NCBI GenBank assembly: GCA_017515325.1
Contig: JAFWGA010000015.1
Span: 1 to 55,109 of the forward strand
Source: Blautia sp.
GTDB lineage: Bacteria > Bacillota > Clostridia > Lachnospirales > Lachnospiraceae
Length of the DNA stretch: 55,109 bases
Direction: 5' to 3'
The notes below the pieces were generated by a model. The model saw only the letters and a list, made by a program, of their open reading frames with translations. It searched no databases and had not been told where the DNA came from. Made by a program: the position numbers and the translations under genes. This document shows positions 9,001 through 54,810 of this stretch, in pieces (within the stretch, counting starts at the first letter, position 1; the number at the start of each line of letters is the position of its first letter).

Positions 9001-12000
9001 TACAGTTTATCAATTGAGCCAGCATTTGTACCCGGTTCCTTCATTTTGATGGTGATTTTTTTCAGTTCCATCTCCTTCCCGTTTACCATAATCGTCGGCC
9101 ACGGAGCATCCACCTTGGGGCTGGATGAAGAAGCAGAAACAGTAAATGTCCACTCGTCACCATCCTGAAATCCTCTGTTTAAAAGTGTTTTTGTCCCTTG
9201 CAATTCCTCCTCAATTCGTGGCTCAAGAATCGTATTTGTGTGCAAAACGGACAAATTATCGGCTCCGTTCACATCACCGGCTCTATATGTTTCATCGCCA
9301 TATACATATGTTACATTCCTGATAACTTTTAATCCATTCTGCTCTCGTACTCCTACTGTTAAATATACAGGGTCTGTAATGTAATCAATATCATACTCAG
9401 TATAACCATCTTCATCATTTCCAATACGAACTCTTTGTTTTATGGAAGGTACAACCTCTTTTATTCTGAACCTGTAAGTTCCTGGTGCCATAAAACCAAT
9501 TTCTTCAAATTGGGCAATTTTATTGCTTGATACTGTAGCTGTCGCCTTATTACTATCAGGCATAACAACAGCGTCTGGATCTCCGTCGATCAATTCTATC
9601 TCATAAGTAAAACCATCTGAAGGCCAGTACAGGTTTCTGACTTCTTTACCTGGATTGCTTTCATAAACAAGCCTCTTAGTTATCTTTGGTGCCAGAACCG
9701 GCATCTTTTTATTTTCAAATGTTAAGGTCGCTGTCTGTGGATTTGTTTGTGCAAGTGCATCTTCTAGAGTAAGGTAATAGTTTACAATGGCAACATTCGA
9801 AGTAACATCAAAAGAAGCATTAACACTCTGGAAGGTAACTCGTACATAAAATTCACTATTATCGAGTTTATATGATGTATCATTCGAGACAGCAGCGTCT
9901 TCCGTGATCCGATAAATAATCACATTTTCCTCACCATTTATGGTGTTACCCACCGGAGCCGGAATTGTGAAGGTGATATTTGCTCCGATATTCTGTTCTG
10001 AGTTAATTGTAACATTCTGACCTGTCTTAGGATCTCTGTAAGTCACCGGGATCCAAACAGGCTGTTCATTATCGATGTCGTACAATTGTTTGATGCCAAA
10101 ATCAAATATTTCAGAACTATTTGCTGAAATTCCATCAACCTTTTTGCCCAGGTTGATTGTAGACTTTTCTGTACCTGGCATTCCTTTATAGACGCCATGC
10201 CACTCAGTAGCCCAGCCAACATACTCGACTGTAACAGTCTGACCAGACACCAGCCAGCCAGAAGCAGTCTGCTTAATATTTACGTTAGCCTTCGGGGCTA
10301 ATACTACACCAGCTGATTCATGAAGATTAACTTGAGTCGCATTGGGAATATTCCAAATGAGATGCTCAGCTATTGTAGCTATCTTGTCATTCTGTTCCCT
10401 TGTAAGTTGTGCTGCTTGTTCTGTTCTCGTGTCCCAAGCAGGCTCTGTATTACCATTTAGTATTTCATGTAGGTTGCCATCAGTATCTTTGGAATATAAA
10501 TTGTATTGAAAACCTCTAATCCCGACGTAGTCATTTTCAGGATAATTGATAACCAAAATTTGATGCTCAAGTATTTTTATGACGCCAGACCGATCCCATC
10601 CAGCATGGTCATCATTCTGAGCAATACCAAATTTATCAACCATCGAGTTACCATTGACATAAATCACTTCATAATCCGGAAGACCTGTTGTATCAATTCC
10701 CCACCATTCTGCATTCACAGTAGGATGCTCGGCAAGTTTTTGGGACTTCCCGGTAATATCATTAATTATCGGATTTACTATCTGATCTCTTATCTGATCT
10801 CCGCTTGTTTTAAATAAGACAACGTCTGTAAAATCATTTTCGGTATTACGGAGCTGAATCTTTTCTGCATCGGCATAATTATATACATACACGTCCTCGG
10901 GTTCACTTTTACCAGGAGGTGTCTCAAGTCTCAACATTTTGTCAGCTGGCCTTAAGTTACTCTCACCTTTTCCGGATGCTTCATATTCTGTTTTAGTAAT
11001 CGTGTGAGCTTCCGTTATCTGATCTGCGTCATTGCTATCAATAATGATTGGAATTGCTCCAATTCTATTTTCGATTGAAATGTTTAAGATCTTACCATCT
11101 GCAATTTTTCCTATAGCAAGAGTCCCAGGATTTGACGCAAGATCAGGGCGCACATTATCAAAATTAACATAACGATCTGAAGTATCAAAACCCGTTGTAT
11201 ACTCATTAACTGCGAAATTAGTCTGTAAATGGCCGTACTGATCAATTTTGTCTGCCACAATTCCATAGTACAAAGCTTGACCCATAAGCTCAGATAAGAA
11301 GTCTTCCGTATCTCTAATTTCCAGATAATCTGTTATCTCTATCTGTCCAACATCATCATTTCTGACTCGCGTAATGTAATTAAAGTCACATGGTGTGCCG
11401 ACGATCTTATCCCCGGAACCATATTTTTCGCCATTAATAGCCTCTGCCAGCGAAGGAATCTCAGACGATTCTATCAAATAATAAGTCAGTGCTTCATTTC
11501 CGGTAAATCTATCACCAGCAGAACCATCTGCTTTTTTCCAATCACCATTTGTTACTATTATTGTATTGTCATTTGAGCCAACATTGATTTGTTTTAATAC
11601 ATATGTGGGTTCTGTCGAAGAATGTTCTGCCTCAACTAAAATAAAATAGTTTTTCTCGGTTACACTAAGCTTGTCAGCCCCCTTGACGTTCAATCGGAAA
11701 ATCTTCTGACTCTCTTCTCGCACAATAATATTTGTAATATAATTTCCAACTCTTGTATTACTGACAAAATCGTAACCGGTAATGTTATCATTTCCTGTTG
11801 CGGATATTCTTCCTTCAGCTTCATTATAGGAAACAGATGGATTGCCGTTAAAAATACGAGTTCTCATGGAATGCCCTGATTCCGGATTATAGGTAATCGA
11901 CTGTCCTTCGGAACCAGAACCAATACCTGTAAATTCCTGCGAATCTTCAATGGAAATTGTCGTAACGCCATTTTCTTCATTCCATGTTATATCAAGTATG

Positions 12001-15000
12001 GTATACGCAATATCTCTATTATTACCGTCTCTTATGTATGCAAGTAACTTATACCCGTTTGATATCGGTGGGTTTGGAGCAGCTTCTTCGCCTTCAGCAT
12101 TCAGAAATCTTATATTAACAATATGATCCCCTGCCTGTTCCTGCTGTTCTTCCTCGTCATCCTCTTTTTCAGTTGCCACTATATTCACAATTGCGCTAAC
12201 AGAAAGACTATCAAGGAAAAATTCCACCATCTCCCGTCCTTTGACGTTCGCGGTCTGGTCACCTACAAGCTCTGCCGTAACATCCTCAGCTTTGATCTCT
12301 TCTACCGCTGCCTGCGTACTATCTGCTACTGCCATAACCTCATCCGCCACCGGCAAATGAATGACAGCGATATCCTCTGCCTTCTCCGCCCCCAGTTCCT
12401 GAGTCAGCTGCTCCTTCTTAAAGCGAAAGCTCACCTTCACAGCATCGCTTGCAGGCTTAATCTCAACAAACTCCCCTTCAATGACATTCCCATTCTCATC
12501 CGCCTTGGGCGCATAGAAGGCAATATCATAAAGCAGGGTATTCGTCGCGTCGTAGGTCTGGGCAGACTCCTCCCCCTTCTGGGTGGCGATATCCTCTGCC
12601 TGGTCGTTCATGGCCTGAATATAGGCATCAAAAGCAGCGCCGTTGCTTTCCGGTGTAATCTGGGTGACACGGAACTTGGCGTCGTCCGGGATCGCGGCGG
12701 GGTCTTCCACGCTGGCCACGACATAGACGTTCGGATCCGTATAGGTATAGCGGGTCTTCTTTGCCGTCACCGCATAGTGAAGGAGAATTTCCGTATTCTC
12801 CTCCAGGGTGATGAAATTCAGTCCGTCTGTAGTGTAAGAATATACATAAGTGAATGCATCCGATGCCGCAAAGACATCCTCATCTTCCGTCTTGCCTACC
12901 ACAAAGAGATCTGCAGCGTCCGTATCGGTATCGGTCTTGGCATCGCTTGCGCCGGCCTGGAAGATCTCTTCTGCCGTTGCATCCTCGGTGTCATCCTGGC
13001 CTGCTGCAAAGACATCCGCGCCGGTACTGCCTACCATGGCAGTCTCAGCAGCGTCTTCAGTCTCTGCCGCCTGGTCTGCGTTTTCCTCTGCGGAAGCATT
13101 CTTGGCATCTGTCGTCACGCCAGCGTCAGCAGCCTCTTTCTCGGTTTCCTCCGTTTCTGCCTTCTGCTCATAGACCTTGGTCTGCAGCAGGGCCAGAACC
13201 TTTTCTCCCCCGATGGTGGCATAGTCATAATCAAAGCTCTCGACATAGAGGCGGTTAGTTCCTTCTACCTCAGCTGCCTTCGTCACGTCCACTCCCACAG
13301 GATCCATAGTCAGATCCAGGGTTCCTTCAAATTCCGGAAGAGTCAGGGCATCATATTCAGAGCCAATAGAATTTCCCTCGGCGTCCACCGCACGGACAAG
13401 GAGGTCGATCCCGACAGCAGGCTCGGAAGCCTTTGCCTCAGCTTCCCTCTCCTCCTCGCCGTCAACCACATCGTTAGAGCCAACCTTCTCCTGGCCTTCT
13501 TCTGTTGTGGCACTTCCTTCGAAAAGATCCGTGTCCTTCTGGACATCTTCTTTCTCTTCTGTATCCGCTTCCTGGTCAGCATTCTCAGCCTCGTCACCAG
13601 CAGCAAACACATCTATCTCTTCCGTTCCGACAGGGGCAGTATCCTCGGCGGCTTCCCTGACATCCTCAGAAGCGGCGTCATCCTCCTCGCCGGCCTCAAA
13701 CAGGTCTGTCTCTTCTTCCGCCTTTACGGCAGAATCATCACCCTCGGCAGCTTCCCTGGTATCTTCGAACACATCCTCAGCCTCGCTGCTGGCTTCAAAC
13801 ACATCGATTATTTCATCTGCTTTGCCGGCAGTATCAAGCTCCTGTGCGGCTTCCAGGGTCTGTTCTCCGGCAGGCTTCTCTTCCTCAGCCACATCGGCTT
13901 GCTGTCCTGCTTCGGCTTCAGTGCCCTGGGTTTCCACGAAAAGATCATCATCCGCGGCATCCTCGTCACCTGTCAGAAGGGCATCCTGTTCTGCGTCCGC
14001 CGTTGCCTCAGCCGCAGTGTCAGTCTTATTCTCCGGTTCCAGGACTTCAATCGTCTCATCAGAGCTTTCCTTCTGAGTTTCCTGGGAAATAACAGTAATC
14101 ACATCTTCACGTTCATCAGCAGCCGTTGCCTCTGCCTCAGTTTCCTGGAAGATCGGGCCATATACGTCCTCAGCTTCTGTTGCTTCGGTAGTATCTACTT
14201 CCTCTTTCTGAGGCGGCTGTGCCTGGTCCTCTGTCAGGTCAGAATCCTCCAGGACAGGGACAGACTCAGCGCTTTCATCTTTCAGATCCAGCAGTTCGAT
14301 CTGAACCGGCTCGGATTCTTTGGCATCCATTTCTTCCTGGTCTGTCTCGTCCGAAAGGGAATCTTCCCTGGACTCATCCTTGGCGGGGGCAGACTCCTCC
14401 CCGGGAAGGACCGTGAGAATATCCTCACCGTCGGCTGCGGAGTTTTCCGTTTCATCATTCAGAACAGGAACCTGGGTTTCATCCTCCAGAACAGGAACCT
14501 CGTCCTGGACAGAAGGCATAGTATCCCCTGCCTGATCCTCAAGGATAGGGATCTGATCCGGTTCTTCGGGCATGATATCCTCAATTGCCTGGCCATCCTC
14601 ACCAGAAGGAGCCTGGCCAAAAAGGCCGCTCAAATCCTCCGAAAGGTTCTGGTTCTGACTGCTTTGCTGGTCTGTAGCGACATCCGATCCCAGGCTGTCG
14701 CCCCCCGAGGTAAAGAGATCCACCTCTAAATCGAGAATCTCCGCCGGTATGGGTGTAGGCGAAGGAGTCGGGGTCATTGTCGGGGTAGGAGTCGGGGTCA
14801 TCGTCGGAGTGGGGGTAGCAGCCCCCATCCCTGTCCCGCTGGTAAACAGATCCTGACTGTCTCCGACAGCGGATGTCTGGGGGCGCATATCGATCTGGGT
14901 ATCGGTCTGCGGCGCGCCAGTAAAAATATCCATATCGCTCGCCAGCGAGACCGTGCTCGTCTGCTGCAGGATCATGCAGATCATAAGCAGCAGGGATATC

Positions 15001-15026
15001 GCTCGGTGCAACTTTCCTCGCTTCAT
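1..15026 (-). CDS. Giant fibrillar adhesin with FctA and CnaB/SpaA domains (partial, 3' end outside window)
   Basis: One minus-strand frame stays open from an ATG at 15026 to the left edge (about 5,008 codons); GGAGGA lies 7-8 bases upstream of the ATG. Residues 1-29 are a Sec signal peptide (MKRGKLHRAISLLLMICMIL...). A Thr-Pro run (about 70-95) and a Glu/Asp/Ala-rich spacer reach about residue 530. Around residues 1400-1640 the phrases HLIWNIPNATQVNL and GVVLAPKANVNI resemble choice-of-anchor A/pAdhesive-type heads. From about 9300 down to 1900 there are about 17 FctA (Spy0128-like) domains of about 145 residues, each with GTKxLxGR, WxFTV, YTVTESG and FTNTY; the Lys, Glu and Asn of these motifs are the expected intramolecular isopeptide residues. 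Positions 1750-1 hold five CnaB/SpaA prealbumin-like domains (FTVNKVD, LREENAPxGY). The cell-wall anchor would lie off the window. Known of the families: rigid, protease-resistant surface stalks. Inferred: adhesion. I did not see a frameshift; antisense shadow frames keep one register throughout. Confidence 0.93.
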   Translation of the reverse strand, partial: MKRGKLHRAISLLLMICMILQQTSTVSLASDMDIFTGAPQTDTQIDMRPQTSAVGDSQDLFTSGTGMGAATPTPTMTPTPTPTMTPTPSPTPIPAEILDLEVDLFTSGGDSLGSDVATDQQSSQNQNLSEDLSGLFGQAPSGEDGQAIEDIMPEEPDQIPILEDQAGDTMPSVQDEVPVLEDETQVPVLNDETENSAADGEDILTVLPGEESAPAKDESREDSLSDETDQEEMDAKESEPVQIELLDLKDESAESVPVLEDSDLTEDQAQPPQKEEVDTTEATEAEDVYGPIFQETEAEATAADEREDVITVISQETQKESSDETIEVLEPENKTDTAAEATADAEQDALLTGDEDAADDDLFVETQGTEAEAGQQADVAEEEKPAGEQTLEAAQELDTAGKADEIIDVFEASSEAEDVFEDTREAAEGDDSAVKAEEETDLFEAGEEDDAASEDVREAAEDTAPVGTEEIDVFAAGDEAENADQEADTEEKEDVQKDTDLFEGSATTEEGQEKVGSNDVVDGEEEREAEAKASEPAVGIDLLVRAVDAEGNSIGSEYDALTLPEFEGTLDLTMDPVGVDVTKAAEVEGTNRLYVESFDYDYATIGGEKVLALLQTKVYEQKAETEETEKEAADAGVTTDAKNASAEENADQAAETEDAAETAMVGSTGADVFAAGQDDTEDATAEEIFQAGASDAKTDTDTDAADLFVVGKTEDEDVFAASDAFTYVYSYTTDGLNFITLEENTEILLHYAVTAKKTRYTYTDPNVYVVASVEDPAAIPDDAKFRVTQITPESNGAAFDAYIQAMNDQAEDIATQKGEESAQTYDATNTLLYDIAFYAPKADENGNVIEGEFVEIKPASDAVKVSFRFKKEQLTQELGAEKAEDIAVIHLPVADEVMAVADSTQAAVEEIKAEDVTAELVGDQTANVKGREMVEFFLDSLSVSAIVNIVATEKEDDEEEQQEQAGDHIVNIRFLNAEGEEAAPNPPISNGYKLLAYIRDGNNRDIAYTILDITWNEENGVTTISIEDSQEFTGIGSGSEGQSITYNPESGHSMRTRIFNGNPSVSYNEAEGRISATGNDNITGYDFVSNTRVGNYITNIIVREESQKIFRLNVKGADKLSVTEKNYFILVEAEHSSTEPTYVLKQINVGSNDNTIIVTNGDWKKADGSAGDRFTGNEALTYYLIESSEIPSLAEAINGEKYGSGDKIVGTPCDFNYITRVRNDDVGQIEITDYLEIRDTEDFLSELMGQALYYGIVADKIDQYGHLQTNFAVNEYTTGFDTSDRYVNFDNVRPDLASNPGTLAIGKIADGKILNISIENRIGAIPIIIDSNDADQITEAHTITKTEYEASGKGESNLRPADKMLRLETPPGKSEPEDVYVYNYADAEKIQLRNTENDFTDVVLFKTSGDQIRDQIVNPIINDITGKSQKLAEHPTVNAEWWGIDTTGLPDYEVIYVNGNSMVDKFGIAQNDDHAGWDRSGVIKILEHQILVINYPENDYVGIRGFQYNLYSKDTDGNLHEILNGNTEPAWDTRTEQAAQLTREQNDKIATIAEHLIWNIPNATQVNLHESAGVVLAPKANVNIKQTASGWLVSGQTVTVEYVGWATEWHGVYKGMPGTEKSTINLGKKVDGISANSSEIFDFGIKQLYDIDNEQPVWIPVTYRDPKTGQNVTINSEQNIGANITFTIPAPVGNTINGEENVIIYRITEDAAVSNDTSYKLDNSEFYVRVTFQSVNASFDVTSNVAIVNYYLTLEDALAQTNPQTATLTFENKKMPVLAPKITKRLVYESNPGKEVRNLYWPSDGFTYEIELIDGDPDAVVMPDSNKATATVSSNKIAQFEEIGFMAPGTYRFRIKEVVPSIKQRVRIGNDEDGYTEYDIDYITDPVYLTVGVREQNGLKVIRNVTYVYGDETYRAGDVNGADNLSVLHTNTILEPRIEEELQGTKTLLNRGFQDGDEWTFTVSASSSSPKVDAPWPTIMVNGKEMELKKITIKMKEPGTNAGSIDKLYVNDTEVNVSNANVVVTVSDNSVAFDFGNIVFGKNHVGNTFYYTVTESGDVDHVDNDTREHNLTCSVYENSDGIQKVSVYSDAAFDFVNTYYVEPTTTKIEARKRVTGRGANYPLNDDEFSFAIEKVSSVDPEGNNIPDMNTGDVLSAANDEEGKVSFDGLSYSQAGTYIYRISETSTAGNGITPDTNTYLAVVNVTDFQTIVDPSLGTERELQLGHLSATVTYYKDNVYGIVPQNKLVDDEGRDTIPQFDNQYKASTSVVLEGEKTITGRDFTGVTPLKLVPDQWTFTIKPDPSDAASADAPLPSSNSIPVTATEGRTASFHFGNIDFDETDIGHTYHYIVTESGEVPNVQNDSAVHKVSVQISDNGNGTLKADVSVTNNGITSEDKKLKFDNTYTASDVSISLDITKHLENRKFKESDTWNFSLAEDEERNSGNERQTPMSGSTSYTLNNLSDSDGNDKSFTAFGPINYTLENAGETYYYRITETNTGSAIDGVTLDTVNTNAHLLSVKIEDLGNGNLRAITTYSDNSSSTKTSSDTSASGGGSEKFTNTFDAKGEFSLTGTKILLNRDLKIGDSWSFTISANTTDTPLPPVAKRTQWVTPTQEWFDSLGEGADRNRQTFMFDDITFTKDDAGKTFTYTITESGNGDGVENDTKVHTVEVTPAYNSATGEVTVPLDNVIYYVDGVRTNSGLTFTNIYHASGQAKLNGTKELQGRTFKAGDKWTFTVTAEEGEDGAGPLPENSNVIIYPESGNEYTWSFLPIYFTEAHIGKSYIYTVAESGNVSGVTPDVNADVNSADYGKTLAPGSHQVRVSVTDNSDGTLEVDVTPYSSTGDENALGLTFTNMYKAEADLSFAGTKSITGRSFQTGDTWKFTIEGENDDTTSSKPAPLPENQTVIITPESGNVATISFAPVKVTQDDIGSYTYTIKEENVNSNIPGVTLDSAEHTVKVTIADNLDGRLAITQTYSDGANGFAFTNAYNASAVAQFGNGVKRIENRAFKKDDKWSFVVTGEKINDSEANVPLPDPSRVTVEPTPGNTSVSIPFGAINYTLADVGTYVYTVTEEGEIAGVQNDTKTHTVTVVVKDKQSLTSEELAEANEGKEESEKISALSDGKLYVKITEGNSSSDTGLSFTNTYGAEGELKLSGDKLITGRSFQSGDEWKFTLSPVGTDEVPVNEVPMPLQEGREDSINPASGNTAPFEFGTIKYTKAGTYTYKVTESGSESLKNEDGTGITNDTKEHTIVVTVTDDNQDGKLTAVPEYYVDGEKVSPQVLRFTNEYTSVGELTFAGSKKMTGRNFNENDADAWNFTVTSNDPAAPTPAPLEENVSSLAINGSTTNTAEINFGKITFTQNDAGKTYVYAVREENAEEVRPGVTNDSASHMVYVTLADDGKGKITPTYVYGDGSKLSFTNTYETDLDIDLSVIKSLDKRDLLASDTWTFTVSTETPGAPLPQNTEAIYVKDEELEGKTDTVSFGNITFTEADAGKTYTYRFKESGNVSGVTNDTRKHTVEITVNDDGEGNLSVSKVYKIGNSSVEENEFAFENKYSAAGNIALSATKEIEGREFQEGDKWKLDIESVDVLGLDGNSLEETTDKLPSAAVNGAVDIVVSRTSYAIGKSSQNVRLGNLTYSLEDLKDSEGNYLNGIIFVYKVSENADVKVDGVTNEDAVRYVYVTVKDTNKNGTLDVTVDYREEQNLTAESLDPERGLVFVNTYSTSGELELKAVKELIGRPFKENDEWKLKVSSNSEDAPMPEKAEITISPSENEIGTNNLVEGSFGKIVFDLSDVGRTYVYTITESGQIAGVANDVDTTAIHTVTVKVSEKLTGGKKTGELDLNVTYGSENALTFRNEYTAKGSLPLNGKKIITGGRDISQGDVFAFTITDEKLDGNDQASDTKEYHTVSEANTGKIAQELSYSLTDAGRHRVTIEEDQDQADQYEAIGVTISSEPLVLEFVVEDNGDGTLAFKDQKVNGSEGNVTGLFTFENTYYAVNDAAAAITARKTLLYRDGKDLQANEFAFELEAFVPEEDDTLYSTDAILHTENSNPVKRTAKNNASGSVTFTNLKYSQVGTYYYKLRETSESINGIEVSTAEYIVKIVVKDDLNGSLYAEEPVYYLAAPDTEGSYETVSQAEFVNTYDASGSTSIDITKQIEGREFKKGDEWTFTLTALDGGPLPKDAEDNIVDTVTVKPESGTEITASFGDIVYTLEDSGKHYTYLISESGTVDGVTNDQNAHAVTVEVSDEEHIGYLTCKKTYNVWDTDGTAKDYKVSEFFKNIYGAEGSFKLNGLKKIEGREFVNGDSWIFTVAGSEGAPMPERSTVEINPQVGTITPIDFGEIRLSLANAGKTYTYTVTESGNCAGIVNDGGTYTVTIKVSDDGNGKVFVADADKSFTYNDTVSGENNVSKEAMVFTNKATVARFSKTDITGEEELAGAHLVVLNGQKDEVEQAGVDAASLEWDSEKGVIHEIVGLAAGTYYLRETVAPVGYYAISTDVEFTVAADGTVKAKTEGNNKTVSVKNEDDEEIDSYNVILIKDTALAFYVNKKLLGGGEEINGAKIEVYHKADINDDGSVRSGATPVDYWESEVGKDHNFGPALTAGETYVLVETVAPQGYAYSSNIEFTVEKNGSITISKDAAGNTVSSEDVTEGEGESASTRKVYLVEDSLLHFVVSKTDVGGGNELPGATLVVYELDANGETIKEAASWISSEEEKRHDFGKDLEAGKSYMLRETVAPEGYGRITTDIEFTVEKDGSVTTGLRKADSKDENGNTVYLVEDDAIHFTINKVDAGNGEEVEGAEMYLYKESDLDEDGNLKEDAEAVDNWTSKKDETHDFGGKMEAGVAYVLREENAPTGYGKVTTDITISVAEDGAVTASIEGTKDKDGNTVYLIEDDALHFTVNKVDAGNGEEVEGAEMYLYKESDLDEDGNLKEDAEAVDSWTSKKDETHDFGGKMEAGEEYVLREENAPVGYGKVTTDIRISVTEDGTVTASIEGTKDKDGNTVYL
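6..695 (-). repeat. Two near-identical 345-bp tandem repeats encoding CnaB domains
   Basis: The sequence beginning at 6 recurs at 351 with only a few base changes, and a more diverged unit begins at 696. The period of 345 bp equals 115 residues, one CnaB/SpaA domain, so the reading frame is kept whatever the copy number. The near identity of units one and two, against the clear divergence of the unit starting at 696, points to recent duplication or gene conversion. More copies may continue past the left edge. Confidence 0.9.
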
Positions 15027-15033
15027 AACTAAG

Positions 15034-15040
15034 CTCCTCC
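15034..15040 (-). promoter_or_regulatory. Strong ribosome binding site of the FctA/CnaB adhesin
   Basis: Minus strand AAGGAGGAGCTTAGTTATG. This Shine-Dalgarno core decides the ATG at 15026 as the start. A competing minus-strand frame starting at 15072 has no such site and does not continue into the adhesin frame. Confidence 0.85.
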
Positions 15041-15157
15041 TTGATATGAAAAAATATTGAATAGGTAAACATCCGGTCTTTTGCAACGGAGCCGGAGTCT
15101 TGATGTCATCCCATGCCCTATACCCGAAAAGGGCAAAGTATGCCGATAATCTTGTAT

Positions 15158-16940: not shown

Positions 16941-16999
16941 AGGCAAGCCCAGCGGAAGCCCTCCCAGAGGAGTTGTAACTTTTGAAAGGAGTCGTCCGA

Positions 17000-18670
17000 T
17001 TGGAAAAAATGATTGTGCTTGGCACAGACATCTTTGATCAGTTTATCAGAGATGACGGCTACTATGTCGATAAAACAGAAATCCTTTATGAACTGGCAGC
17101 TCTCAGCCGAAACAAGGTATCCCTGTTCACTCGCCCCCGGCGTTTTGGAAAGACCCTTACCATGAGCATGATGGAGAGCTTCTTCGATATCCGCAGAGAC
17201 AGTACAAGGGTATTCGAAGGCCAGAAGATCCTTATGAATCATCCGGATTTCTGCAGGGAGTGGATGAACCAGTATCCTGTTCTCTTCCTTTCTCTGAAGG
17301 ATGTGGAAGGATTGACCTTTCTGTCCGCCTTTAAGATGCTCAAAAAGGCCATAGCTGATGTATGCAAGAAGCTTTCTTTTCTTTCGGCAGAAAAGAAAGT
17401 CGATCCGGATGATGCTGTGACTTTCCATAGGCTAAAGGCTGAAACCGCCGGAGTCGAGGATATAAAAGCCTCTCTTAAAACCATCATGCGCATGATGGCT
17501 GCTGTCTACGGAAAACCGGTAATTCTCCTGATCGATGAATACGATGTTCCGCTGGCCAAAGCTGAAGGGAGCAAAAACAAAGAATACTACGCCCAGATGC
17601 TTGATGTGATACGTGGTATCATGAGTATCTCGCTGAAAACAAATGAATATCTGAAATTTGCGGTTGTGACCGGCTGCCTGAGAATTTCCAAGGAGAGTAT
17701 CTTTACGGGGGTAAACAACTTTGCCTGCTACTCGGTGACAAACCGGAAGTTCAGCCAGTATTTTGGCTTTACAGAGGATGAGGTTGTCAAACTCCTGGAA
17801 GCCTTTGGCTTATCCGACAAGATTGATCTGCTCAGGAAATGGTATGATGGATACATTTTTGGGGACACAGAAGTGTTTTGCCCTTGGGATGTGGCCAGTT
17901 ACGTATCGGCCGTTCTTTACGACGAAGAAGAAGAACCACAGAACTTCTGGGCCAACACAAGCTCAAATGAGATCCTGGATGAATTTGTGAACCACAGAAA
18001 GATTGACGCTTCAGATAAATTCGAAATGCTTTTGAATGGTGGTACGATTACGGAAGAGGTTTCCGAAGAACTGACCTACGACAGGATTTCAGAATCAGAG
18101 AAAAACCTGTGGAGTGTCATGCTTATGACTGGGTACGTGTCAAAGGCCGACAAGTCGGTGTCCAAAGGAAGAATGAAGCTCCGTATCCCGAATTCAGAGA
18201 TTGCCGATATCTTCAAGGACGCTGTGGTGGCCAGGTTTGAGAGAACCTTAGATGCCGGGTATGTGGATGCTTTTATCACAGCAATGTGGAACAGGGATGA
18301 AGAAACCGCCACAGAAATGCTCACAGGGATTCTCTGGAATTCCATCAGCTTTTTCGATTATGGAGAGGATTATTACCACGGAATGCTGAATGGGATATTT
18401 ACATCCCGTGGATATACACCCGATTCCAATGATGAAGCCGGTCTCGGAAGACTGGATCTGAGAGTGAAGGATCGCGGAAGCAGAAGCATCCTGCTGATGG
18501 AATTCAAGCGTTCCAGAACAGAAACTGACCTTGACGCCGATTGTGACAAGGCCATCGCGCAGATCATCAAAAACGGATACAACAGAATTATACCGGAAGG
18601 GTATGAACAGCAATTAGTCTATGGAATTGCATTCTATGCAAAAAAGGCAAAAGTAAAGCTGATGAAGTGA
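17000..18670 (+). CDS. AAA-ATPase-like protein with C-terminal PD-(D/E)XK nuclease fold
   Basis: This is a cytoplasmic protein of about 556 residues. The best start is the TTG at 17000, 8 bases after AAAGGAG (16985-16991); the next ATG is at 17009. It opens with the family signature GYYVDKTEILYEL. It has a Walker A-like FTRPRRFGKTLTM (residues about 43-55), Walker B VILLIDEYDVPLAKA (about 172-187) and, near the C-terminus, GRLDL...LLMEFKRS (about 483-503), which supplies the D and ExK of a PD-(D/E)XK fold. This is the AAA-ATPase_like (PF09820) plus PDDEXK_9 (PF08011) architecture. The family is abundant in anaerobic Firmicutes and Bacteroidetes and its role is not established; a link to mobile DNA or defence is only a guess. 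A second member lies at 19745-21445 on the opposite strand. Confidence 0.92.
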   Translation: MEKMIVLGTDIFDQFIRDDGYYVDKTEILYELAALSRNKVSLFTRPRRFGKTLTMSMMESFFDIRRDSTRVFEGQKILMNHPDFCREWMNQYPVLFLSLKDVEGLTFLSAFKMLKKAIADVCKKLSFLSAEKKVDPDDAVTFHRLKAETAGVEDIKASLKTIMRMMAAVYGKPVILLIDEYDVPLAKAEGSKNKEYYAQMLDVIRGIMSISLKTNEYLKFAVVTGCLRISKESIFTGVNNFACYSVTNRKFSQYFGFTEDEVVKLLEAFGLSDKIDLLRKWYDGYIFGDTEVFCPWDVASYVSAVLYDEEEEPQNFWANTSSNEILDEFVNHRKIDASDKFEMLLNGGTITEEVSEELTYDRISESEKNLWSVMLMTGYVSKADKSVSKGRMKLRIPNSEIADIFKDAVVARFERTLDAGYVDAFITAMWNRDEETATEMLTGILWNSISFFDYGEDYYHGMLNGIFTSRGYTPDSNDEAGLGRLDLRVKDRGSRSILLMEFKRSRTETDLDADCDKAIAQIIKNGYNRIIPEGYEQQLVYGIAFYAKKAKVKLMK

Positions 18671-19744: not shown

Positions 19745-21445
19745 TCAATGTGCCGATAAACCGGTACGATACGACGGCTGCTTCTTTACCAACGCGCTCT
19801 TGCGGAAAAAGGCAATGCCATAGCAAAGCACCTGCTTATAACCTGCCATAGCATCCGCATACTGCCCCTTAGCAATCTGGAGGAGTGCTTCTTCACACCA
19901 ATACTCCATCCGCTCCTCACTCTCAGCTTTCTTCATCTCAATAATCATAGCGCGTCTGTTGTGTTTGTCCCTCAGATCCAGATCAGGTCTTCCCAGTCCA
20001 CGCCCTTTATTGGAAGAAACCACATATCCGCCCCTTCCTTTGAAGACTCCAGCGACAAAGGCATGGTAATAATCCTCATGGTAATCCAGGTAACTGATGG
20101 TTTGCCAGAGGAAATCAGAAAGAATCTCGGATGCCTTCTTTTCATCCCCATCCCACAGCGCACGCATCAATTCTCGCTGTTTCGACTCATCAACACTCTC
20201 TGTAAAGTGATCGGCAACAGCCGTTTGAAAGATACTGGCTATTTCCCTGTTGGGAATGCGCAGCTCTACTTCACACTGCCCCTCATCGCCAACATAATCC
20301 TCCCGCTGTATGGGTGTTACATAACCAGTCATCAGAAGAATGCTCCATAGATTTCTCTCGGATTGATAAGCCTGATCATAGGTAAGCGCGTTAGTTACCG
20401 TTTCCTGAATGGTTCCCCCGTTCAGAAGGGTTTCAAATTTATCCGAGACGTCCACATTCTCCAGGCCGAAGAAAGCTTTTATAGCATCATTTCCGCTGGT
20501 GTTCTCCCAATAATTCCTGGGCTTTGCGTTCTCCCTCTTCATCAGGGCAGCAACATAATTGACAACATCCCATGGGCAGAAAACCTTCGAATTTCCAAAT
20601 ATGTAGCCATCATACCATTCTTTTATGGTTTCCATCTTTTCAGAACGATTAAATGACGCAAGCATTTGGGCTGCTTCATCCTGTGTGAAGCCAAAGCCAT
20701 CCGAAAAATCCTCATCCAGCACCGAGTAGGAAGCAAAGTTATTCACACCAGTAAAAATGCTCTCTTTCGGAATCCTCAGACATCCTGTCACGACCGCAAA
20801 CTTCAGATAGTCGTTCGTCTTTAGTGATGTACTCATCAGCCCCCGGGTCACGTCAAGCATCTGGGGATAGAATCCATTGACATATGCTTTAGCCAAAGGA
20901 ACATCATACTCATCTATTAACAGAATTACCGGCTTTTGGTAGGCTGCATTCATCATACGGGTAATGGTTTTGAGCGAATTCTGGACATCTGACTCCGTAC
21001 CTGTTTCGCTCTTTAATCGTTTGAACCGCATGCGGTCGTCTTCATCAGTGCGCTCATCCTCAGCCAGAAAAGAGAGCTTCTTGCATACATCTGCAATTGT
21101 GGTCTTTAGTTTATCATAAGCCAGCTCAAAGCTCCGTCCCTCCACATCCTTCAGGGTAAGAAATACTGTGGGATACCGATTCCTGTACTCCGCACAGAAT
21201 TCAGAATGATTCAGGATCGCCAGACCTTCAAACACATCGGCGTAATCCTTCATAAATATGCTGAAGAAGCTCTCCATCATTCTCATGGTGAGAGTTTTCC
21301 CAAAACGGCGGGGGCGGGTAAACAGAGTAACCGTATTATTTGTCTCCACCAGATCAAATAACAATTCTGTCTTATCAACGTAGTATCCCTTCCCTCTGCG
21401 CAGCTTCACAAAGTCTTCTCCGCCGACAGCAATCTTCAATGCCAT
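19745..21445 (-). CDS. AAA-ATPase-like protein with C-terminal PD-(D/E)XK nuclease fold (second copy)
   Basis: The ATG at 21445 (MALKIAVGGEDF) is chosen because GGAAGGAGGAGG lies directly upstream; an upstream ATG at 21490 in the same frame would add 15 residues ahead of that site. The protein has 566 residues and no signal peptide. GYYVDKTELLFDL opens the family domain. Walker A-like FTRPRRFGKTLTM is at about residues 40-55, Walker B VILLIDEYDVPLAKA at about 168-183, and GRPDL...IIEMKKA near 483-503 gives the PD-(D/E)XK residues. It is clearly a paralogue of the protein at 17000-18670, identical over many blocks but divergent in the linkers. The two genes converge on the LRR relic. Function is unknown for the family. 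It has its own promoter and lies downstream of the giant gene's terminator, so it is probably monocistronic. Confidence 0.93.
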   Translation of the reverse strand: MALKIAVGGEDFVKLRRGKGYYVDKTELLFDLVETNNTVTLFTRPRRFGKTLTMRMMESFFSIFMKDYADVFEGLAILNHSEFCAEYRNRYPTVFLTLKDVEGRSFELAYDKLKTTIADVCKKLSFLAEDERTDEDDRMRFKRLKSETGTESDVQNSLKTITRMMNAAYQKPVILLIDEYDVPLAKAYVNGFYPQMLDVTRGLMSTSLKTNDYLKFAVVTGCLRIPKESIFTGVNNFASYSVLDEDFSDGFGFTQDEAAQMLASFNRSEKMETIKEWYDGYIFGNSKVFCPWDVVNYVAALMKRENAKPRNYWENTSGNDAIKAFFGLENVDVSDKFETLLNGGTIQETVTNALTYDQAYQSERNLWSILLMTGYVTPIQREDYVGDEGQCEVELRIPNREIASIFQTAVADHFTESVDESKQRELMRALWDGDEKKASEILSDFLWQTISYLDYHEDYYHAFVAGVFKGRGGYVVSSNKGRGLGRPDLDLRDKHNRRAMIIEMKKAESEERMEYWCEEALLQIAKGQYADAMAGYKQVLCYGIAFFRKSALVKKQPSYRTGLSAH

Positions 21446-21499
21446 CTCTGCCTCCTCCTTCCTGCCAGGACAAAACAAATACGGTTCCATCGTAAAGCC

Positions 21500-49777: not shown

Positions 49778-52700
49778 TCATTTCATTCTGTCTCTGTACC
49801 TGTATTCCGTATGTGACCCGGTTACATATGACTGCTGCGATGCACTCTGGTTATACCAGGTAACATTAGCACATGACGATGTCCTTGACCCATTGTATTC
49901 CACCTGTCCTCCCGAGAATACCTGCCTTACACCAAGCGGCGAGTCAAAAGGTCCGCAGTATTCCCACATACCGCCTGAAGAGTAATAGCTCTGACCACTA
50001 CAATCCCACCAGGTTGAATACCATTTTCCGCTTGTATGCAGGTAAGTAAAGCGACTGTAGCTGTAAACCGTCTTTGTTCCATAATCCGTTACGGATCTTG
50101 TCTCCACCTGGCGATTGGTATCGGAAGCCACGGCTGTGGTTGACCAGCCGCTCCAGCTGCCAAAGTCATTCAATCGCCAGCGGGCATAAAGGGTCAGCGG
50201 CTCTTCGCGGTCAAATGAGCTGGCGGCAGACACCAGGTTTCCACCGTTAATCTCGTCATACCATCCTGCAAAAGTATAATATGGTCTGTCTGCGGAAGGC
50301 ATATTTCCAATGGCTTCTCCACATGTGGCTGTCATGGAGTCGATGCCCGCTGTACCTCCATTTCCATCAAAAACAATCTGGTATACAGCCGGCTTCACTT
50401 CTATCTGCTTCTGATCCTTTACCGACCTCTTTGCTCTGCATAATGCAGTAATGGTAACGGTCCCTGTTGCAACAGGACTCACAATACCGTTCTTGTCTAC
50501 GGTTGCAACACTGCTATTGCTGGATTTCCAGAGAACCGTCTTATCATCAGCACTTGCCGGCAGGACTTCTGCGCTCAGCTGAAGTGTCTGATCCAGACGA
50601 ACACTTGTATCTCCGGAAATGGTCACGCTTTCCGGAAGCATGATCGTATGAATCGTCTGATACCCCATGACGCCGTTTTCTGCCTGCGCCCCTACAATAA
50701 CAGAACCAATACCGATTACATCCAGCAATCCATCTTCATTAAGAGAAACAATCCCTTGGGGAATCTGAGCCTGCACACTCCAGGTCACCTCCTGATCCGC
50801 ATCCGCAGGAGTAACCAATGCATTAAGCTGTACCTGTGCACCCACTTCAACTGTATATGTCCCATCTGAATTCCTGTCCCGGTCCTGCACATCTATAGTA
50901 ATGGTGAAGTGTTCTTTCCATTGAGCATAGATCGTCATGTTCTTTGTAATCTTTGTAGCTTCGGTCACGGCGTTTCCACCGGTTTTTGCTGTATACCATC
51001 CTTCGAAGGAATACCCATCGCGAGCCGGCGAAGGCAAAGCTCCCAATGCACCATATGTCCACTGGGCATACAGGGTGTCTGCTGCATCGTCCGCATAAGT
51101 CGCGCCTGCAGAATATTTCGTTCCCGATCCTTCCGCTTTCCAACCGGCAAAGGTGGCTTTCACTGTTCGTTTGTCTGTCGTACCTGTTCCGTAGTCCAAT
51201 GTCACTGTACAGATCCTGGTTGGCTTCGCGGTGCTCAAAACCAGGTCCACGCCCTGGGTTTTGATCTGGCTCTCTGGTTCGCCTGTTCCACCATTAGCGT
51301 TATAGGTAATGGTATAGATTTTTTTCCATTGAGCATAGATCGTCATGTTCTTTGTAACCTTTGTAGATTCGCTCACGGCGTTTCCACCGGTTTTTGCCGT
51401 ATACCATCCATAGAAAGAATACCCATCGCGAACCGGAGAAGACAAAGTTCCCAATGTTCCATATGTCCACTGGGCATACAGGGTGTCTGTTGCATCTTCC
51501 GCGTAAGTCGCGCCTGCAGAATATTTCGTTCCCGATCCTTCCGCTTTCCAACCGGCAAAGGCGGCTTTCACTGTTCGCTTGTCTGTTGTACCTGTTCCAT
51601 AGTCCAATGTAACCGTACAGGTCCTGGTTGGCTTCGTCGTGCTCAAGACCAGATCCACGCCCGGGGTTTTGATCTGGCTCTCTGGTGCGCCTGTTCCACC
51701 ATTGGCGTTATACGTGATCGTGTAGCTCCCGCTTCCTGCCAGCTTGTCCAGCTGCATCAGCCCATACCCGTAGTTGTTTACGTCCGGAATCACATCCTTG
51801 AGCCTACGGCAAATAACGGGCAGGTCTTCTTCCGTGTGGTTTTTGTCCAGCTTTACCAAGGCTAAAGCCGTGGCCACCATCGGAGCCCCAAAAGACGTTC
51901 CTTTGCGCACCATCGAAGGATAGGCGGAGGTGGTCACATAGGAATCCGGTGCGCAGAATGTAATGTTAGCTCCGTAGTTTGAAGTGTTGGACAGCTCATA
52001 ATCATTGTCGATGCCGGAAACCGCGATAACCCCCTGAACATTGGCGGGGTATATTTTTGAGATGTCCCTTTTACTGTTACCGGCCGCTGTCACTACATCT
52101 ATACCGGCAGCAACTGCCTTGTCAATCCAGTAGCTGACGTAGTCGTTTTCTTCAAAGTTCAGGCTCAGGTTGATCACATCCACGCCGCGGCTTATCGCAT
52201 ACTTGATGCCAAGACCAATCATGGTCAGGTTCGCCACGCCGCTTTCAGATACCACACGGACAGGCAGTATCTCCACGCCGGTGTCTCCTGCGCAGTCCCC
52301 GATAATGCCCGCAATCATGCTCCCGTGCAGGAGCTTATCATTCGACCATTCCGGATCCCCTGATACAAGGCTGATGCCGTCCGTCCGCAGCCTGTCCGAA
52401 TAGGCTGCATTTTTCTGCACGCCCGAGTCAATCACCGCAATCAGAGTGCGCCCTGAATTCTGTTCCGCCACATATGGGGCATAGGCCTCAAAGCCCATAG
52501 GGTCTTTCGTGTCCCACACATTGGCGTCCACAGAGCTGGCATCAATAACATCTTCAATGACCTCCACGCAGGCATCATTTTCTACAAACACCACACCCGC
52601 ATTTCCCTTGAGTGCGTTGTAGGCATCAATGGTATCCTCCACCGAGCCAAATTGCACGAAGAAAACACCGTCCCCCTCCTGGAGGATCTTTTCCGGGCTG

Positions 52701-53209
52701 TAAGCAGAAATATCCGGCAGATGGTTTCCTCCCATACGCACAATCAGACGCATGGTCATGAAATCCGCGCTCTGAAGGATCGACGTCGTGCCTCCATGAG
52801 CCGTTACCAGTTCCAAAGCTTTTTCGAGAAAACTGCTGCCCTCCTCCAGGAGGTCGCATGAGAAACCATGCGACAGGGCATAAAGCTCTCCTGCCGTATC
52901 CGGGAAGGCCTGAAAATGGATATCGCCGCAGCCCGAAAAAGCATCCGGGGCGATGGACAGATTCGAATTATTTCCGAGAATCACTTCCTTCAGGTTCACA
53001 CAGCCGGCAAAGGCCTTTGACTGGATGCTTTCTACCGATTTGGGGATCATGACGGATGTAATGCTTTTGTCATTCGCAAAAGCCTCTTTTTTCACCACCT
53101 TCATCTTCGAAGGCAGCATCAGTATATCCTGATCCGCCTCCACACATAACGGGAAGCATAGTGCAAAAAACAAAACAAGCATTCCTGCCATCAGACTTTT
53201 TTTCTTCAT
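49778..53209 (-). CDS. Secreted subtilisin-like serine protease (S8) with LRR cap, InlB-like repeats and Ig-like domains
   Basis: The ATG at 53209 (MKKKSLMAGMLVLFFALCFP) is preferred to the one at 53215 because GAGGA lies 6 bases upstream. After a signal peptide ending VEA, residues about 25-110 are BspA-type LRR units (VKKEAFANDKSITSVMIPKS). The peptidase S8 domain (about 240-480) has all catalytic residues: Asp in VIDSGV (about 258), His in LLHGSM (about 294) and Ser in GTSFGAPMVA (about 438). Two 136-residue Listeria-Bacteroides (InlB B-type) repeat units follow (about 497-770; YTITYNANGGTG, FEGWYTAKTGGNAV). Next come two BIG2-like domains, one further InlB-like unit (FDGNGGTAG) and an aromatic C-terminal domain (WSGWSTTAV to YRYRDRMK). 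No wall anchor. Residues about 110-240 may be a propeptide. The serpin gene lies 64 bases upstream on the same strand, suggesting an operon. Confidence 0.95.
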   Translation of the reverse strand: MKKKSLMAGMLVLFFALCFPLCVEADQDILMLPSKMKVVKKEAFANDKSITSVMIPKSVESIQSKAFAGCVNLKEVILGNNSNLSIAPDAFSGCGDIHFQAFPDTAGELYALSHGFSCDLLEEGSSFLEKALELVTAHGGTTSILQSADFMTMRLIVRMGGNHLPDISAYSPEKILQEGDGVFFVQFGSVEDTIDAYNALKGNAGVVFVENDACVEVIEDVIDASSVDANVWDTKDPMGFEAYAPYVAEQNSGRTLIAVIDSGVQKNAAYSDRLRTDGISLVSGDPEWSNDKLLHGSMIAGIIGDCAGDTGVEILPVRVVSESGVANLTMIGLGIKYAISRGVDVINLSLNFEENDYVSYWIDKAVAAGIDVVTAAGNSKRDISKIYPANVQGVIAVSGIDNDYELSNTSNYGANITFCAPDSYVTTSAYPSMVRKGTSFGAPMVATALALVKLDKNHTEEDLPVICRRLKDVIPDVNNYGYGLMQLDKLAGSGSYTITYNANGGTGAPESQIKTPGVDLVLSTTKPTRTCTVTLDYGTGTTDKRTVKAAFAGWKAEGSGTKYSAGATYAEDATDTLYAQWTYGTLGTLSSPVRDGYSFYGWYTAKTGGNAVSESTKVTKNMTIYAQWKKIYTITYNANGGTGEPESQIKTQGVDLVLSTAKPTRICTVTLDYGTGTTDKRTVKATFAGWKAEGSGTKYSAGATYADDAADTLYAQWTYGALGALPSPARDGYSFEGWYTAKTGGNAVTEATKITKNMTIYAQWKEHFTITIDVQDRDRNSDGTYTVEVGAQVQLNALVTPADADQEVTWSVQAQIPQGIVSLNEDGLLDVIGIGSVIVGAQAENGVMGYQTIHTIMLPESVTISGDTSVRLDQTLQLSAEVLPASADDKTVLWKSSNSSVATVDKNGIVSPVATGTVTITALCRAKRSVKDQKQIEVKPAVYQIVFDGNGGTAGIDSMTATCGEAIGNMPSADRPYYTFAGWYDEINGGNLVSAASSFDREEPLTLYARWRLNDFGSWSGWSTTAVASDTNRQVETRSVTDYGTKTVYSYSRFTYLHTSGKWYSTWWDCSGQSYYSSGGMWEYCGPFDSPLGVRQVFSGGQVEYNGSRTSSCANVTWYNQSASQQSYVTGSHTEYRYRDRMK
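50905..51720 (-). repeat. 408-bp tandem duplication inside the subtilase gene
   Basis: The sequence around 50921 recurs at 51329 with few changes, a period of 408 bases or 136 codons. Each copy encodes one List_Bact/InlB-like unit plus its insert (TLDYGTGTTDKRTVKA, AGWKAEGSGTKYSAGATY). The frame is kept. The copies differ mostly by single bases. Confidence 0.85.
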
Positions 53210-53273
53210 AGCCATTCCTCATTTCTGTCTCGCTCCCGGTTCTGATCCATGGAAGCGAAAAGAGTCGTGATTT

Positions 53274-54620
53274 TTACGGATAATACACTGCTCCAATGAA
53301 CAGCGGTACGTTCTTTGGGCCAAGTAAAGCAAACATAAAAGGACGATCCAGTATAAAATCCACTTCCTTCTCCGGCATGAGCAGTGCTCCTAAAACATTT
53401 GAAATCGTCACTGCAGCAGCTTCTATCCCTTCCTCGTCCATCTTCACCCTTGCCAGCTGCAGCAATGAGGAAACGCTGAGAGGATCATTTGAAACAAGTA
53501 TTTCGGAAAAATCCGCCTTTTCCTCACTGAAAATATCGACTATGCCCATGCTTTCAAGACTGCTGTTCAAAGACAGCTCAGATTCAAGATCCAGCTTAGG
53601 CATAGAAAAAGTGACCATCAATTCTTCCTGATTTTCCCAGGTTTCCGGGGAATCAAGAAAACGGAAAACTTCAGAATCCTCCACAAGTTCTTCTATAGAT
53701 GTTGTAGAATCCGGCAGCACAAAGGCTGCTTTCTGCGATTCCCCTACTCCACGGATACATGCGGTAAAGCCTGTACCATAATATAGGGTGTCTCTATCGC
53801 GCGCATTCAGAAAATCCAGTTCGATATCATTGTCCGGAGCATGGAACACCGATGGTGACGTGTCCTCAACCAGAAACGGCGTCTCCCATCTCCCGTTGCA
53901 ATAAAGTGTTGACGCGGCCGAAAGCAGCGCGTTCTGATCAAACTGCAGTGATGACACAGCCTCATCCAGCTGCCCGCGAGTCATTTGATTGATCCAATAT
54001 TGAAGAGCATGGTTATATTCCGGATTCCGCACATCACCGTGAAAAACGGAAGTCATATGTTCTGTACTAAGCTCACTGACATCTCCCTCATCTATCCCCA
54101 CCTTTTGGTCCAGCCACAGGGAAACGCCTGGAATGCAGGCTGCTTTGCCATCATCCCAGTATTGAGAACGCCATAGTGACTCTGTCTGCGCGGACAGGCT
54201 CTCAAGAGTCTCCTCGCCAAGGACATCTAATATCTGGCTCCGGCTCTGCCCGGTCGTAAGCTGCGCAATCAAATCCAATTCAAGCCATAACGACAGCGGC
54301 GAGTATATCATATTCTCCGGAATTTCGGACTTCAAGAGGGAACGTGAGCTGTTCTCCACAAAACGTTTCAACCCATCCGGATTTTCAATTTCAGCATTCT
54401 GCCGTGTTTCCAGCGACTCCCACCAGGCATCAAAGGCTTCCATATTTTCCGGCAGCGACAGATCCGCATCCATACTCAGAGCCTGCGGAAAAGTCCCGTA
54501 ATCTGCCTGCGAGATTGCGTAATCATCTAATATCGTATGCTCTTCTCCCAATACTGTACAGCACCCCATTACGCACAGCAATGCGAAAAAGGACACCATT
54601 CCCAGGAAACATCTGCTCAT
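53274..54620 (-). CDS. Secreted serpin-type serine protease inhibitor, about 448 aa
   Basis: The preferred start is the ATG at 54620 (MSRCFLGMVSFFALLCVMGCC), after GGGGGAGGG and at the head of a signal peptide. The frame extends to an ATG at 54665 (MKSLNQMIIMNGGG) that also has a GGAG site. VMGC could act as an imperfect lipobox. The serpin fold is recognisable from NMIYSPLSLWLELDLIAQLTTGQS through TLYCNGRWETPF and MVTFSMPKLDLESELSLN to the end DRPFMFALLGPKNVPLFIGAVYYP. The hinge EEGIEAAAVT (residues about 393-402) matches the inhibitory-serpin consensus EEGTEAAAAT except for Ile at P14. Counting 17 residues from P17 puts Ala at P1 and Leu at P1' (VLGA|LLM), which would suit elastase-like or subtilisin-like proteases. 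It precedes the subtilase gene by 64 bases on the same strand. Confidence 0.92.
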   Translation of the reverse strand: MSRCFLGMVSFFALLCVMGCCTVLGEEHTILDDYAISQADYGTFPQALSMDADLSLPENMEAFDAWWESLETRQNAEIENPDGLKRFVENSSRSLLKSEIPENMIYSPLSLWLELDLIAQLTTGQSRSQILDVLGEETLESLSAQTESLWRSQYWDDGKAACIPGVSLWLDQKVGIDEGDVSELSTEHMTSVFHGDVRNPEYNHALQYWINQMTRGQLDEAVSSLQFDQNALLSAASTLYCNGRWETPFLVEDTSPSVFHAPDNDIELDFLNARDRDTLYYGTGFTACIRGVGESQKAAFVLPDSTTSIEELVEDSEVFRFLDSPETWENQEELMVTFSMPKLDLESELSLNSSLESMGIVDIFSEEKADFSEILVSNDPLSVSSLLQLARVKMDEEGIEAAAVTISNVLGALLMPEKEVDFILDRPFMFALLGPKNVPLFIGAVYYP

Positions 54621-54810
54621 ACTCCCTCCCCCGTTCATGATAATCATCTGATTCAAGCTTTTCATCTCCCTTCCTCTTTGCGGAAACTTTGTCGTAACTG
54701 CTCGGTACTTTGTGCTTCATAGTTAGAGCATAAAGGCGTGGCTCCTATCGTCGTAGTGGAAGTACGCCTTCTGCTCACTACCCATACTGTCGCATACGCA
54801 GCTCGTAGCA

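Follow-up and report, generated by a model that had tools for sequence, protein, structure and literature searches.

A putatively surface-anchored serpin encoded directly upstream of an LRR-capped subtilase in Blautia, and possible protease-sensing serpins linked to ECF sigma factors among its relatives

Background

PinA of Clostridium thermocellum inhibits subtilisins and, in the accessible portions of the reports, is proposed to protect the cellulosome against both own and foreign proteases (PMC8201313, PMC6718151, PMC12484212); going by the same portions, a serpin that may restrain its producer's own subtilase and guard a complex on the cell surface has already been suggested in the literature on this species (PMC8201313, PMC6718151). 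The siropins of Eubacterium siraeum, as far as the available text of their description extends, are inhibitors of neutrophil elastase and proteinase 3 but do not act on subtilisin (PMC5127057). In a superfamily tree, most bacterial serpins fall into two related groups (T and U), the targets of which are given as poorly known in the available part of that work (PMC8233489).

Here we analyze a contig of Blautia sp. in which a serpin gene lies directly upstream of a gene encoding a subtilisin-like protease with an LRR cap; the whole stretch of DNA analyzed, 55,109 nucleotides, is referred to as the window. A literature search, conducted mostly without subscription papers, returned no description of a serpin gene placed directly before a subtilase gene. 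Our best explanation, to which we assign a probability of about 0.5, is that the product is a surface-anchored inhibitory serpin that would act as a general guard of the envelope against subtilisin-like or elastase-like serine proteases.

Methods

Family serpin loci (117, flanks of up to about 7 kb included) were scanned with a home-made S8 profile built from 40 of 43 candidate sequences, and adjacency was counted from the serpin loci. The short serpin fragments G132:C371, G132:C305, G069:C69, and G069:C76 were left out of the family loci, as was one order relative (G942:C37, 27% identity) out of the order loci, while locus L246 gave no serpin ORF. Chance expectations were derived from the S8 frequency in 109 genomes (4.1 matches per genome) using a model in which genome size, gene length, and a same-strand factor are assumed. 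Linkage to ECF sigma genes was scored in 155 serpin ORFs, namely all those of at least 300 aa from the family and order loci retrieved, together with L079.

Results and discussion

The serpin gene and the probable location of its product

53274..54620, minus strand: serpin gene, 448 aa (Pfam match and predicted fold)
54561..54620, minus strand: signal-type N-terminus, residues 1-20, ending in the weak lipobox VMGC (from the sequence; putative anchor)

The serpin ORF extends over 54665..53274 on the minus strand. The start at 54620 that had been chosen in the original prediction is the better one, because GGAGGGAGT stands just 5' of its ATG and translation from there opens with a signal-type N-terminus. 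The 448-aa product matches Pfam Serpin (PF00079) with 172.8 bits (cut-off 27; E 1.6e-50); this is its sole Pfam domain, with no dockerin found in the Pfam scan, and a search of the whole genome identified the window gene as the single serpin match. The predicted structure resembles solved serpins, the fold spanning the whole domain. Several of its best structural matches are cleaved or latent serpins with the hinge inside sheet A, and these were given little weight because predictors may favour that state.

The VMGC motif (residues 17-20) departs from the usual lipobox pattern. Clearer lipoboxes are seen in aligned relatives such as P0019 and P0021, and a lipobox or membrane segment is present in many serpin relatives; because of these relatives and its own weak lipobox, we consider that the window serpin is likely to sit on the outer face of the cell membrane, perhaps anchored as a lipoprotein. 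Inspection of its sequence revealed no cytoplasmic-type N-terminal segment. The nearest relative found is P0002, a metagenome serpin with 43% identity overall, which is the sister row of the window serpin in a tree of 97 serpins inferred by a quick method (99% SH-aLRT).

Hinge and reactive loop

53370..53435, minus strand: hinge and reactive loop, residues 396-417, EEGIEAAAVTISNVLGALLMPE (alignment of 26 serpins)
53382..53387, minus strand: codons of the predicted P1-P1' pair Ala412-Leu413, the predicted cleavage site (17-residue rule applied to the alignment)

The inhibitory-type hinge EEGIEAAAVT, read earlier from this sequence by itself, was recovered in the alignment of 26 serpins, with Gly at P15 (G398), Ala at P12-P10 (AAA), Val at P9 (V404), and Thr at P8, that is, with the P15 Gly and small P12-P9 residues by which inhibitory serpins are recognized. 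Inhibitory serpins typically carry Thr or Ser at P14, where the window serpin has Ile399, a residue unusual among known inhibitors, and Gln388 and Ser237 occupy what we take to be the classical shutter His and Asn positions. These departures are what would favour a protein whose inhibitory power was lost or never present and which serves as a substrate or as a structural protein. We regard this as improbable, given that the remaining hinge is of the inhibitory type, that members of the window serpin's clade commonly have a hydrophobic P14 and commonly have Gln or His as the shutter residue, and that the loop is kept in P0002, with identity at 7/12 residues from P7 to P5'. In most other aligned relatives the loop differs. 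The Ala-Leu centre predicted for P1-P1' fits an elastase-like or subtilisin-like target, as first proposed; P1 in P0002 is Leu.

The downstream LRR-subtilase and the gene junction

49778..53209, minus strand: LRR-subtilase gene, 1143 aa, with LRR_5, S8, Flg_new, and Big_2 domains (Pfam)
52901..53116, minus strand: LRR_5 stretch, residues 32-103 (Pfam on the first 480 aa)
52562..52750, minus strand: predicted pro-domain, residues 154-216 (predicted strands and helix; structural matches)
51842..52447, minus strand: S8 catalytic domain, residues 255-456, with D261, H295, N378, and S439 (Pfam and alignment)
53210..53273: 64-base spacer including the subtilase ribosome-binding site (sequence)

The subtilase matches PF00082 with 82.9 bits (cut-off 21.8; E 3.4e-23); a Pfam run on the whole 1145 aa did not list this family, which the first 480 aa alone returned at E 1.3e-22. 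The earlier description of a secreted S8 protease with an intact triad is upheld for a secreted-type subtilase: D261, H295, N378, and S439 are invariant in 23/23 aligned proteins. Its N-terminal LRR cap corresponds to the LRR_5 stretch. The best structural matches of the predicted pro-domain are to unprocessed pro-subtilisin E. Where subtilisin has SLGG the window subtilase has SLNF, Asn being found at that position in 16 of the 23 aligned family members. Subtilisin engineering provides the background for the idea that such a change could narrow the S1 pocket, which may suit a small P1 Ala; our literature search found no direct support for it.

Outside the own genome, the first 480 aa of the subtilase had no match above 38% identity at E 1e-25 or better, whether in 397 genomes of the family or in 391 of the class. 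A protein search, which carries no genomic context, retrieved 47 proteins (P0121-P0167) covering 92-100% of this segment at 34-91% identity; P0121 is probably the own-genome copy on C22 described below.

Serpin and subtilase lie on the same strand 64 bases apart, as had been reported, with the subtilase ATG at 53209 and AGGA six bases 5' of it; the gap is 58 bases if the first ATG (53215) is counted. No minus-strand terminator-like site occurs in the spacer (8 found overall versus 4.9 expected), promoter-like sites are at chance (10 found, 7.9 expected), and the RNA structure of the spacer is unremarkable (z -0.54). The subtilase is likely to be cotranscribed with the serpin, judging from this arrangement.

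The window is one whole contig, which leaves 489 bases of sequence 5' of the serpin start. Its description as a giant-adhesin island held in part: one giant ORF (5028 aa, window 3-15086, minus strand, running off the contig), scanned over 4900 aa, contains 18 FctA stretches and 4 of SpaA, and the other (7509 aa) matches no Pfam family in its first 4900 aa. Two genes, each matching AAA-ATPase_like plus PDDEXK_9, are found among the giant genes (16982-18670, plus strand, and 19745-21490, minus strand).

Pairing of serpin and subtilase in relatives

Serpins are spread across the family, with a match in 91/250 genomes (one genome per genus, own genome included). A subtilase was found within about 7 kb in only 2/117 family loci, versus 2.1 expected by chance; in both this count and that given below the chance figures are upper estimates, because S8 matches count split domains twice, and a neighbour may be missed at many loci because contig ends cut them. 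One of these loci (L228) has its subtilase 3.4 kb from the serpin, and in the other (L218) only 227 bases separate the serpin from a codirectional subtilase downstream. The L218 subtilase ORF keeps the Asp and His stretches and stops before the Ser, and Pfam found no LRR in it; L218:6063-8404 (genome G093, contig C17) is thus a second serpin with a broken subtilase directly behind it.

Within the genus, 20/64 genomes have a serpin match (own genome included). With flanks of about 1.5 kb, 24 genus loci contained no S8, and among the matches listed, coordinates place an S8 match 5.1 and 5.3 kb from the serpin, on the opposite strand, in at least 2 species. In the order, 48/363 genomes (own genome included) contain a relative at E 1e-20 or better, and a subtilase was seen in 0/20 loci, for which the better loci were taken (best serpin of each 27-38% identical). 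A scan of viral_contigs yielded one remote serpin (21%) and zero subtilases, while the single serpin from the genome_contigs scan, L079, neighbours an ECF sigma gene.

Apart from the window, 1 adjacent pair was observed versus 0.25 expected in 177 serpins (P about 0.22). Conserved adjacency of the two families was therefore not borne out in the relatives checked, the counts being at chance level; its absence had been named at the outset as the first half of what would refute the pairing, and a conserved serpin-subtilase operon was rejected on the 117 family loci, the 20 order loci, and the genus positions.

Copies within the genome

Among the matches listed, the genome has three S8 matches, all belonging to the family of the window LRR-subtilase. 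An open copy of 736 aa with a different C-terminus lies at C22:5634-7844 (L080), and a broken one at C35:5545-7619 (L081). The intact C22 paralogue has no serpin in front of it, and its DNA similarity to the window starts inside the serpin stop codon.

C6:2210-2346 preserves the junction at 85% identity to the window, from 21 codons at the serpin's 3' end through the spacer to the first subtilase bases. The surrounding C6:1634-2346 (L083) contains decayed serpin pieces, the spacer, and a subtilase-like start around a short LRR gene, and from its sequence we read it as the remains of a second copy of the serpin-subtilase pair. The linkage of the serpin to the subtilase start therefore predates that duplication. 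We take the pair to be young and private, because pairs in the relatives checked are at chance level, the intact paralogue has no serpin, and the decayed site keeps the junction.

General guard or dedicated partner

In the general serpin mechanism, loop cleavage is followed by insertion of the hinge and covalent trapping of the protease. Applied to the window serpin, a protease would cut the exposed loop near Ala412-Leu413, the hinge would then slide into beta-sheet A, and the protease, dragged along with it, would end up covalently trapped on the serpin. Serine proteases reaching the envelope would in this way be disabled, the neighbouring subtilase being one possible target. For the window serpin we infer lipoprotein anchoring, inhibition, and targets alike.

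A general guarding function is consistent with the serpin fold, the inhibitory hinge, the loop kept in P0002, the lipoboxes of relatives, the occurrence of serpins throughout the family, and subtilase adjacency at chance level. The Ile at P14 and the weak lipobox count against it, and three observations favour a link between the two genes instead: the serpin-spacer-subtilase junction occurs twice in the genome (one decayed), the S8 matches listed are all of one subtilase family, and L218 provides a second serpin directly before a (broken) subtilase.

Such a link would be explained by the chief competing hypothesis, in which one transcript yields both the LRR-subtilase and a serpin dedicated to it as cognate inhibitor, and subtilase maturing prematurely near the surface is trapped. 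The shared strand, the 64-base gap without a terminator-like site, the single duplication of the junction, the restriction of the listed S8 matches to this family, and the possible fit of SLNF to a P1 Ala all point in that direction. Against it, adjacency shows no excess over chance, the C22 paralogue is intact without a serpin, a pro-domain is predicted within the subtilase itself, and P1 in P0002 is Leu rather than Ala. Because the relatives that could be checked show pairs at chance level, we treat a dedicated partnership as a possibility only, and a somewhat unlikely one; a general envelope guard is the likelier function, because the subtilase has its predicted pro-domain and an intact paralogue without a serpin.

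Serpins linked to ECF sigma genes

Sigma-serpin examples: L199:7042-9146, L223:5994-8062, L307:7012-11621, L312:6207-8257, L302:6168-8203, L079:2703-4842, and others

An ECF sigma match lies directly upstream on the same strand in 25 of the 155 serpin ORFs, out of 40 sigma matches in total among all scanned ORFs. With the home-made profile, 22 of these 25 score at least 190 bits, and the Pfam sigma-70 model was above cut-off in 6/6 sigma ORFs checked. Many of the linked serpins start with a short cytoplasmic-type segment such as MKKEDLFDAMGEINEEFIRNA, behind which come basic residues and then a stretch of membrane type. When the first 60 aa of one linked serpin served as the query, only three serpins were retrieved. 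On the quick tree of 97 serpins, ECF linkage changes 20 times (at least 9 of these forced by starred branches) and is not clustered, 104/500 shuffles being as low, a pattern that fits repeated gain or loss of the linkage.

The simplest reading, suggested by gene order and N-termini, is that the linked serpins are membrane proteins that hold the sigma factor and report protease attack, making them possible protease-sensing sigma/anti-sigma pairs. No description of such a sensor role was found in our literature search, including the available portion of PMC10059941. This lead is stronger than the pairing originally proposed and may matter more, as the linkage would make serpins sensors of extracellular proteases.

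The window serpin itself could in principle be such a sensor, with its sigma factor encoded elsewhere, since 18/64 wider-clade serpins have an ECF sigma gene directly upstream and the linkage changes often on the tree. We hold this to be very improbable: the 489 bases upstream of the window serpin contain no sigma gene, its N-terminus lacks the cytoplasmic-type segment, and the quick tree does not place it inside an ECF-linked group.

A broader proposal, which we consider unlikely, is that the window encodes a young protease-antiprotease cassette in which SLNF is matched to the P1 Ala, both proteins are exported jointly, and the serpin kills protease maturing at the surface of its producer, the whole being built from a serpin stock repeatedly recruited to supply the outer partner in ECF sigma/membrane-serpin pairs, which would act as one-shot protease sensors. 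If true, gut Clostridia would use serpins to sense as well as to disarm proteases.

Comparison with known systems

Should the window serpin trap its neighbour, it would represent a clean bacterial case in which a protease and its suicide inhibitor are encoded together, and the idea advanced for C. thermocellum would be put to the test; as a general guard, it would add a divergent lineage to the bacterial serpins. By description, in the portions of the reports available, PinA resembles the window serpin in being clostridial and secreted, whereas PinA is a cellulosome component and the window serpin has no dockerin by Pfam. The siropins, likened to it by the available description as gut commensal serpins with inhibitory activity (PMC5127057), act on host elastases, which we count in favour of a general guard. 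P0002 has nearly the same loop, differing at P1 (Leu for Ala). Pro-subtilisin E and its kin share the S8 domain, the D-H-N-S set, and the predicted pro-domain with the window subtilase, which is unlike subtilisins in its LRR cap, its Flg_new and Big_2 domains, and its SLNF in place of SLGG.
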